A DNA stretch of 64,000 nt from Stenotrophomonas raiganjensis (SeqCode) (GTDB taxonomy: Bacteria; Pseudomonadota; Gammaproteobacteria; Xanthomonadales; Xanthomonadaceae): positions 62,001 through 126,000 of the forward strand of contig NZ_JAUTXR010000173.1 in NCBI RefSeq assembly GCF_030658505.1. The letters are read 5' to 3'. The notes under the pieces are model-generated. The model was not told where the DNA came from, searched no databases, and worked only from the letters and a program-made list of their open reading frames with translations. A program made the translations under genes and the position numbers. Position 1 is the stretch's first letter, and every line of letters begins with the position of its first letter. Below are positions 11,664-12,204 of the stretch, one piece after another.

Positions 11664-11834
11664 GCAGGGCTGCGCCCTGCACCTGCTACAAGCCTGAGCA
11701 ACCCCAACCGCCACTGGGGCTCGGTTTTTTTGTGTGTGGGGGGGGGGGGTGTGGGTGGGCAGGACACGCCGTAAACCCTTCCATGGGGGCTCGATGGCGC
11801 CATCCATGGCGCCAACGGTCCTGCCCACCCACAC
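11664..11834 (-). repeat. Composite structured repeat, copy A (inverted)
   Basis: Begins with the palindrome GCAGGGC-TGC-GCCCTGC (11664-11680). It ends with a large hairpin whose outer stem is a perfect 17 bp (11749-11765 with 11818-11834). The 52-nt interior holds an inner hairpin, TGGCGCCA at 11795-11802 with TGGCGCCA at 11807-11814 around TCCA. Read on the minus strand, the interior matches copies B and C (CATGGATG loop, CGAGC, TTTACGGCGT), although the outer stem sequence differs. Between the two parts lie a T7 tract and a G12 run. Confidence 0.8.
11738..11749 (+). repeat. Run of 12 G
   Basis: An uninterrupted G12 tract, followed by TGTGGGTGGG, next to the base of the copy A hairpin. Long G runs are prone to slippage and could form a quadruplex with the neighbouring GGG triplets. 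Confidence 0.9.
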
Positions 11835-11922
11835 CGCCCCACCCCGGACAGATTTCCGGTGACGGCTGGACCATCCGCGCTTTGCGTGGATCAGATCTGT
11901 GAGAGATCGAATTGAATCCGGT

Positions 11923-11957
11923 GTCAGATTCGTTTTCCGCAGGAAAACGGATCTGAC
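11923..11957. repeat. GTCAGAT-type inverted repeat
   Basis: The 16-bp arms 11923-11938 and 11942-11957 (GTCAGAT...TTTTCC and GGAAAA...ATCTGAC) pair around GCA with one wobble, and are followed by CCCC. The same family occurs at 55022-55056 at the end of the RnfB-like gene. Confidence 0.85.
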
Positions 11958-11958
11958 C

Positions 11959-12204
11959 CCAAGAGCAAGTCCGACAGTTCGCAGGAAACTGTCGAAGGCG
12001 GGGTGGGTCCGGTTGCGGGGGCGTGAGCGCCATGGATGGCGCGACCGAGCCTACATGGACGTATTTACGGCGTCCCCCGCAACCGGACCCACCCCGCCAA
12101 CCCTCAGGGAACCAGCTTCTGCTGTTGCTGTTGCTTCTGCTGTTGCTGTTGCTGTTGCTGTTGCTGTTGCTCTGGATCGTAGCGGGTGCAGGGCGCAGCC
12201 CTGC
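11959..12204 (+). repeat. Composite structured repeat, copy B
   Basis: Modules in order: CCAAGAGCAAG (11959-11969); a hairpin CGACAGTT/AACTGTCG (11972-11979, 11987-11994) with loop CGCAGGA; a large hairpin with a perfect 25-bp stem (11997-12021 with 12074-12098) enclosing 52 nt; inside it, an inner hairpin GCGCCA/TGGCGC with loop TGGA (12027-12042); a hexanucleotide microsatellite (12116-12172); and the palindrome GCAGGGC-GCA-GCCCTGC (12188-12204). Order and sequence match copy C. The 573 bp between 11655 and 12227 contain no convincing gene. Confidence 0.85.
12116..12172 (+). repeat. GTTGCT/CTGCTG microsatellite
   Basis: About nine imperfect hexanucleotide units of the CTGTTG/CTTCTG kind. 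It would read as poly-leucine in one frame but has no gene context. Copy C has the related GCCGTT version at 51147-51168. Confidence 0.9.

Follow-up and report, generated by a model that had tools for sequence, protein, structure and literature searches.

YPAL, the Yersinia palindromic sequence of about 168 bp, is described as a mobile element of intergenic DNA, and 60 such regions of Y. pestis contain it (PMC2229807, PMC2759123). Its sequence is printed as RU-2/YPAL in PMC2759123, in which RU-2 is given a 56-aa open reading frame. According to the passages of the review PMC2229807 drawn on here, YPAL targets span or adjoin dyad symmetry, and the element is 'co-translated' (the review's word) with upstream genes and might influence the stability of their transcripts. 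Target duplications of 3–26 bp are given for it. The word CsrA has no occurrence in PMC2229807. Among papers on CsrA with extragenic palindromes and on RsmA with GGA motifs and repeats, no title or abstract opening describes an element like the one reported below.

Two Rfam families are also relevant. TwoAYGGAY (RF01731) is proposed to bind CsrA (PMC4333381) and is listed for human gut, gammaproteobacteria, and Clostridiales (PMC2864571). Ysr224 (RF02770, Yersinia sRNA 224) is placed among the 20 most prevalent bacterial sRNAs (PMC9029176). Such a prevalence, as we infer for ourselves, would fit a repeat. RsmX/Y/Z/V, CsrB/C, and RsmU are GGA-motif RNAs that bind RsmA/CsrA, and the repeat described below would work alike if its binding were confirmed; all of these are named sRNAs, unlike this dispersed repeat. 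CsrA dimers bridge two sites at distances of roughly 23 nt. The RsmA/RsmF consensus in stem-loops is CANGGAYG (PMC9308961). RsmU, which derives from a 3′ UTR, was presented in a 2020 Xanthomonas study as a new RsmA-sequestering RNA, and in the text of that study used here no CsrB/RsmB, CsrC, or RsmV-Z homologue is reported for sequenced Xanthomonas genomes (PMC7694677). Finally, Stenotrophomonas carries dispersed palindromes, the SMAG sequences, which resemble our repeat in that respect and belong to the GTAG-tagged REP families of 20–40 bp palindromes (PMC3733652).

The window, that is, the whole stretch of 64,000 nucleotides that was analysed, holds three copies of the element. Beside tilS lies a composite of about 565 bp that contains copies A and B and has a 63-nt inverted repeat at its two ends. 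P1 denotes the long outer stem, P2 and P3 the short hairpins of the core, and R1 our covariance model. The features are as follows.

11025..11654, plus strand: ORF upstream of the composite, which it adjoins with its 3′ end; family searches gave nothing above cut-off
11652..11714: left arm of the outer inverted repeat, with a GGCAGGGCTGCGCCCTGC hairpin; complementarity to 12154-12216 is 84%
11749..11834, minus strand: copy A; 17-bp P1 outer stem and core with two hairpins; R1 match
11778..11785, minus strand: copy A loop 2, CATGGAAG; deviates from CANGGAYG at Y
11801..11808, minus strand: copy A loop 1, CATGGATG; fits CANGGAYG
11835..11996: centre of the composite; further hairpins at about 11924-11956 and about 11972-11994, by eye
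11997..12098, plus strand: copy B; 25-bp P1 outer stem and core with two hairpins; R1 match
12031..12038, plus strand: copy B loop 1, CATGGATG; read from the sequence
12054..12061, plus strand: copy B loop 2, CATGGACG; read from the sequence
12115..12171: tract of GCTGTTGCT type, lying between copy B and the right arm of the outer repeat
12154..12216: right arm of the outer inverted repeat; pairs with 11652-11714
12186..13514, plus strand: tilS, tRNA lysidine(34) synthetase, right of the composite; start codon provisional
51034..51117, plus strand: the window's third copy, which stands alone; part of a stretch of about 288 bp, 50912-51199

A preliminary description of this DNA had rightly reported copies A and B. 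Their outer stems are exact reverse complements over 25 bp (11997-12021 with 12074-12098) and 17 bp (11749-11765 with 11818-11834), and the interiors, which it had called nearly the same, are both 52 nt long and agree at 43 of 52 positions after copy A is reverse-complemented. It did not include the RsmA/CsrA-type loops, the strand, the outward pairing, the 63-nt outer repeat, or the copy number. The RsmA/CsrA-type (GGA) strand is the plus strand for copy B and the minus strand for copy A. Both loops of copy B fit CANGGAYG and also AYGGAY, and copy A has the AYGGAY fit in loop 1 only. The content of the composite centre varies among species at the same site. Tracts similar to the GCTGTTGCT-type tract stand beside other copies, and other composites, too, have at their ends a GGCAGGGCTGCGCCCTGC-type hairpin and, next to it, GCAACA-type tracts. 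The centres of some composites contain GTAGATCCACG-type hairpins, which we take to be SMAG-like. A SMAG identity for the element itself was ruled out, since the consensus of its alignment (A1, below) has no GTAG tag.

The preliminary description also held that no described family has this plan. This claim falls, because the core matches the printed YPAL/RU-2 sequence, and the repeat thereby gains a named relative. Copy B agrees with RU-2 at 46 of 52 interior positions, with one extra nucleotide in RU-2; 29 columns are invariant across seven sequences that include RU-2; and RU-2 folds as P1-P2-P3 with two CANGGAYG loops, CAAGGAUG and CAUGGAUG. However, outside the core and stem the sequence of YPAL is not common to the repeat here, and there is no unit of about 168 bp with the outer sequence of YPAL. 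Instead, the unit is a hairpin of about 100 bp, often in outward inverted pairs within a mosaic of about 565 bp. Furthermore, the loop spacing is 1 nt shorter than in RU-2, and no target duplication was recognised for the repeat here (by eye, at one site). The element is probably a branch, in the host's family, of a gammaproteobacterial miniature repeat of which YPAL/RU-2 is the named member.

The host genome of 4.7 Mb contains about 140 copies, two of which are copies A and B. A pattern for the core gave 137 matches with up to two mismatches, compared with 0 for the reversed control, and a pattern of two CANGGAYG sites alone, 8–24 nt apart, gave 131 places, compared with 13. With R1, at least 141 matches were obtained at E 0.001 from 150 candidates scored. 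Copy numbers from R1 are lower bounds, at most 150 candidates being scored per genome in the set of 21 genomes and at most 21 in the class-wide sample. Some copies in G000 lie at contig extremities (e.g., C82:105583-105666 of 105667, C79:11318-11401 of 11402, and C169:1-84), which means that the assembly is broken within copies, and the real number may exceed the count.

R1 was built from alignment A1, for which 319 fuzzy matches yielded 130 copies (loop 1 of CANGGAT type, with up to three changes), 123 of them with enough flank. After 15 copies in another register and 17 with fewer than 11 of 16 Watson-Crick pairs were dropped, 91 remained in the standard register, of which 90 are distinct; they align without gaps over 84 columns. 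In the structure model, P1 has 16 inner bp, P2 has 7 bp, and P3 consists of two 3-bp helices with a 5-nt bulge. This structure pairs 95.8% of the 2,610 cells of A1, compared with 68.7% after shuffling and at most 47.3% when slid, and the covariation score is 0.631, compared with 0.160 and at most 0.120, respectively. A stem kept while its sequence changes, which the preliminary description had seen in two copies, is therefore confirmed on 90, with both-sided changes in 25 of 29 pairs. The 73 distinct P1 stems of the host genome are 94.4% Watson-Crick (1,103 of 1,168), compared with 57% when shuffled. The two outermost pairs of P2 are unpaired in 35 and 36 of the 90 copies; RNAalifold returns P1, P3, and the inner P2 from A1, omits the two outer P2 pairs, and adds pairs 17-42 (C-G/U-A) and 18-41. 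On its two strands, copy B folds with z of −10.3 and −8.1, and copy A with −7.0 and −8.2, with 0 of 200 shuffles as stable for either copy. In minimum-energy folds of single sequences, both GGA loops are open in 43 of the 90 copies; in that of copy B, its two CATGG segments pair with each other.

Copies from other gammaproteobacteria behave similarly. Alignment A2 was drawn from 80 of at least 119 public stretches, several of them from one genome; for A2 as for A3, rows were fitted to the structure model. The 81 distinct rows of A2 are 94.9% paired, with double changes in 24 of 29 pairs and one P3 pair unpaired in 35 rows. In these taxa P1 varies almost freely between copies, and yet its complementarity is still 90%: 68 distinct stems, from the 78 of 88 rows with a length of 83–85, have 981 of 1,086 pairs Watson-Crick, compared with 40% when shuffled. 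The search pattern for A2 demanded both loops, so loop invariance is built into it and only the stem pairing is informative.

The loops themselves were counted on the model-found set from the host genome, which comprises 129 matches in 92 of 93 loci (L186 was omitted, as it overlaps L185). Both loops fit C-ANGGAY-G on one strand in 116 of 129 copies. The GGA of loop 1 is kept in all 129, and loop 2 varies in 43% of copies at N and in 29% at Y but in at most 2.4% elsewhere in the loop. The narrower AYGGAY is fitted by loop 1 in 127 copies and by loop 2 in 69. The distance from GGA to GGA is 23 nt. Thus, features of RsmA/CsrA-binding RNAs are present, namely CANGGAYG loops, in the 116 copies, on hairpins supported by covariation. 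Wobble pairs also distinguish the strands. In the 73 distinct P1 stems, G:T on the GGA strand occurs 34 times and A:C, the wobble of the other strand, 5 times; in other taxa the counts are 45 and 13. With each position and type counted once, the difference is 29 versus 15 (p 0.049). Selection on an RNA would give this excess, and strand-biased mutation (deamination) could give it too.

The host encodes a canonical CsrA, which passes the NCBIfam and Pfam cut-offs. CsrA is also encoded in 21 of 21 genomes tested, including five without R1 matches, and its presence therefore does not discriminate. Nor are GGA loops a sure guide to RsmA binding, since Xanthomonas RsmU, in the part of PMC7694677 used here, was still bound by RsmA in vitro with all four GGA motifs changed.

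We suggest, with moderate confidence, that the element is a mobile repeat and that its RNA displays, held up by a long stem, a site of two hairpins for RsmA/CsrA. Transcription, RsmA binding, a regulatory effect, and the way of moving are matters that we infer. In the RNA of the right strand, the long P1 would hold up the short hairpins P2 and P3, usually with C-ANGGAY-G loops. The 23-nt layout from GGA to GGA is as would be expected for the paired site of one RsmA/CsrA dimer, and a single RsmA dimer may clamp both loops. In this host the element often occurs as outward pairs between genes, in most cases with one gene or more upstream of it. The likely effect would be local, on the 3′ end and the stability of the upstream mRNA, together with a collective titration of RsmA. 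The preliminary description had offered a functional RNA or a transposed hairpin as readings. Both may hold: the covariation and the empty sites described next are observed, and the function of the RNA is presumed.

Orthologous sites were compared at two places. For the tilS site, 31 genomes matched and 17 loci were listed, 11 of them with both flanks, our own included. Among these 11, six relatives retain the pair (L205-L210), several with a left or right copy of another class. L214 has collapsed to a remnant, L215 has expanded, and L218 and L219 have no element between the ORF and tilS, with flanks that are only 72–80% identical. The expanded centre of L215 (G387) has 1,230 bp between the flanks, with apparent tandem units and hairpins of GGGGTCGGATCC and GTGGATCTAC types in its first 900 bases. 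At the second site, the stretch 50912-51199, which holds the third copy, is absent from G402 and G416, where the flanks are contiguous; several other relatives have other repeats in the same gap. The unit missing there is larger than the hairpin itself. By eye, at this one site, no clear target duplication was seen between the diverged flanks, and the empty site in L416/L417 has no P1-like palindrome. Empty and filled orthologous sites fit mobility, as in YPAL/RU-2. A separate event is seen in several species, in which a hairpin beginning GTGAGGGCGCTTTGCTT interrupts the element at a fixed spot, P3 loop 2 (L209, L431, and L434, and here L111, L112, and L203). This insertion, a repeat nested in a repeat, removes the second GGA loop.

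Could the element be mobile DNA with no role for its RNA? A DNA-only palindrome of the YPAL kind, the loops of which would be part of a recombination or transposition site, seems unlikely to us, but it is the most serious of the alternatives. It accounts directly for the presence and absence of the element at orthologous sites and for outer stems that differ wholesale among genomes around a constant core, and YPAL offers a precedent as a mobile element with targets at or beside dyad symmetry (PMC2229807). Single copies show no orientation bias, as this explanation would have it. The stems would be kept perfect by hairpin-templated (template-switch) copying of one arm from the other, or the core would insert into existing palindromes. 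Hairpin-templated DNA repair can also produce covariation of a whole stem. Such correction leaves unexplained, however, that loop 2 varies mainly at N and Y of the RsmA consensus and that the wobble excess is strand specific. The short internal helices, furthermore, covary around a kept 5-nt bulge, and no P1-like palindrome is seen by eye at the empty sites.

The arrangement of the copies bears on our preferred reading, a mobile repeat with an RsmA/CsrA site in its RNA, and on a second alternative. Neighbouring copies up to 1,200 bp apart have their GGA strands directed outward in 38 of 38 cases (regular expression, 93 loci), and close pairs up to 600 bp apart found with the model in the host genome are outward in 36 of 36, at 226–405 bp from start to start. 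Because a pair is outward, read-through from either side would yield one GGA-sense copy. The regular expression finds a single copy only in 52 of the 90 copy-bearing loci. Close pairs in other taxa are outward in seven cases (L308, L319, L238, L245, L247, L262, and L263) and tandem in three (L280, L254, and L260).

Gene flanks were taken from a rough, home-made ORF caller based on G+C by codon position. Called genes stand within 400 bp on both sides of 38 clusters, converging on 14 of these, running in tandem at 23, and diverging from 1. The remaining 54 of the 92 clusters are unclassed: 36 have no called gene on one side, often at a contig end, 10 have one farther off, and 8 lie inside a called ORF, some of these ORFs probably being false. 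That convergent flanks outnumber divergent ones (p 0.001) points to a position 3′ of a gene in nearly all cases; the copies are intergenic. Single copies beside tandem genes have no preferred sense (8 sense and 8 antisense), which rules out the idea that they favour the sense read through from the upstream gene.

The same convergent excess, together with the high stability of P1, is what a REP-like 3′-end device would give, in which P1 shields mRNA ends, serves in their processing, or keeps converging units apart and any RsmA binding is incidental. We consider this improbable. The conserved two-loop core, present in genomes of 29 families, would be superfluous in a mere terminator or barrier; moreover, the flank counts come from a rough ORF caller that left 54 of 92 clusters without a class.

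A wholly undescribed structured RNA is still less credible, and very improbable in our view. Its one attraction is that at the Rfam gathering score only tRNA is found, in the window and in 10 named copy-bearing loci; RsmX/Y/Z/V, CsrB/C, and RsmU are not among the gathering-score matches of the window. The printed YPAL/RU-2 core contradicts it, as do matches below cut-off to Ysr224 and TwoAYGGAY. The Ysr224 alignment runs through the core, although the Ysr224 model is built on the opposite (UCC) strand. Copy B scores 28.9 bits and copy A 24.4 bits, short of the gathering score of 70; L156 reaches 35.1 bits (E 6.7e-7), and L330, with 38.9 bits, is the sole one of eight named loci matched at E 1e-4. 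TwoAYGGAY likewise has two hairpins with AYGGAY-type loops on the GGA strand, but it is not termed an interspersed repeat in the parts of its descriptions used here. A whole-genome search with it gave 11 matches at E 10; five are full length, and the best reaches 36.7 bits (E 6.7e-4), below the gathering score of 43. By cmscan, TwoAYGGAY is not listed at E 0.01 for the stretch scoring 36.7 bits, at E 5 for the window, or at 1e-4 for any of the eight named loci. It exceeds the cut-off in 2 of 21 genomes, G340 and G211 (three matches). Micro-RNA families that appear in the cmscan of the window are far below cut-off and reflect only the long perfect stem, and we set them aside.

Chance inverted repeats in G+C-rich DNA, for which base composition is the only argument, were ruled out by the 137 matches against 0 for the reversed pattern and by the fold z of −7 to −10, and we give them practically no weight.

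The repeat is widely distributed. Within the genus of the host, 8 of 11 genomes have at least 30 pattern matches and 3 have none; within the family, neither of the two sampled genomes of genus g8 has a pattern match. Across the order, the pattern with up to two mismatches allowed matches in 40 of 150 genomes, some of the matches being single and likely due to chance. R1 at 1e-5 matches 34 of 215 genomes in the class-wide sample, our own included, from 29 families. Among the 21 chosen genomes, 16 match R1, again including our own, and 5 have more than 100 matches. Hosts among the matches listed are Methylomonas, Thiohalomonas, Sedimenticola, Microbulbifer, Marinobacterium, Marinimicrobium, Aliidiomarina, Halorhodospira, and Nitrococcus. 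All 80 listed public stretches bear titles that we take to be gammaproteobacterial from the genera named.

In distant BLAST searches, copy B as a single query had no match among plasmids or among phages. A copy from Chromatiales had two weak plasmid matches covering 56% and, as a single query, no match among E. coli genomes, and one pattern was found in three stretches of a viral collection. On these one or two queries for each, phages and plasmids seem not to be what usually carries the element.

The spread (34 of 215 genomes, 29 families), the inverted-pair composite, and the link of YPAL, TwoAYGGAY, and CsrA are apparently new. A broader reading, which we put forward only tentatively and think somewhat doubtful, is that YPAL, Ysr224, the gammaproteobacterial TwoAYGGAY, and the repeat here are one mobile RNA family presenting a site for a CsrA/RsmA dimer and forming a distributed, strand-symmetric sponge and 3′-end network. 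The family would then occupy tens to more than 100 loci per genome, doubled in some lineages into outward inverted pairs. If true, this would provide one explanation for three little-understood entries, YPAL, Ysr224, and TwoAYGGAY. Mobile DNA may have spread candidate regulator-binding sites around gammaproteobacterial chromosomes. If RsmA/CsrA binds them, the free level of this global regulator would depend on mobile DNA whose copies grow and shrink in number from one species to the next, and the same DNA would wire genes into the Csr network. If the host is a near relative of Xanthomonas, the repeats make the question of RsmA titration there testable.

Other elements with two such sites were also observed. 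G142 and G012, of the same genus and with no R1 match, have eight and two partial TwoAYGGAY matches, respectively (within model positions 43-117, at most 38.8 bits, below cut-off), and these two genomes may therefore hold another kind of two-loop element. Dual CANGGAYG sites number 118 in G366 and 50 in G243, compared with 0 for the reversed control in each. R1 finds nothing in G243 at E 0.001 despite these sites, so a further two-site family may be present in that genome. Finally, G263, with 0 R1 matches, contains a second dual-CANGGAYG repeat (L102 and others) with N18 spacing and the hairpins in reverse order, TACATGGATGTA first; one copy of this repeat was folded, and both hairpins are present.
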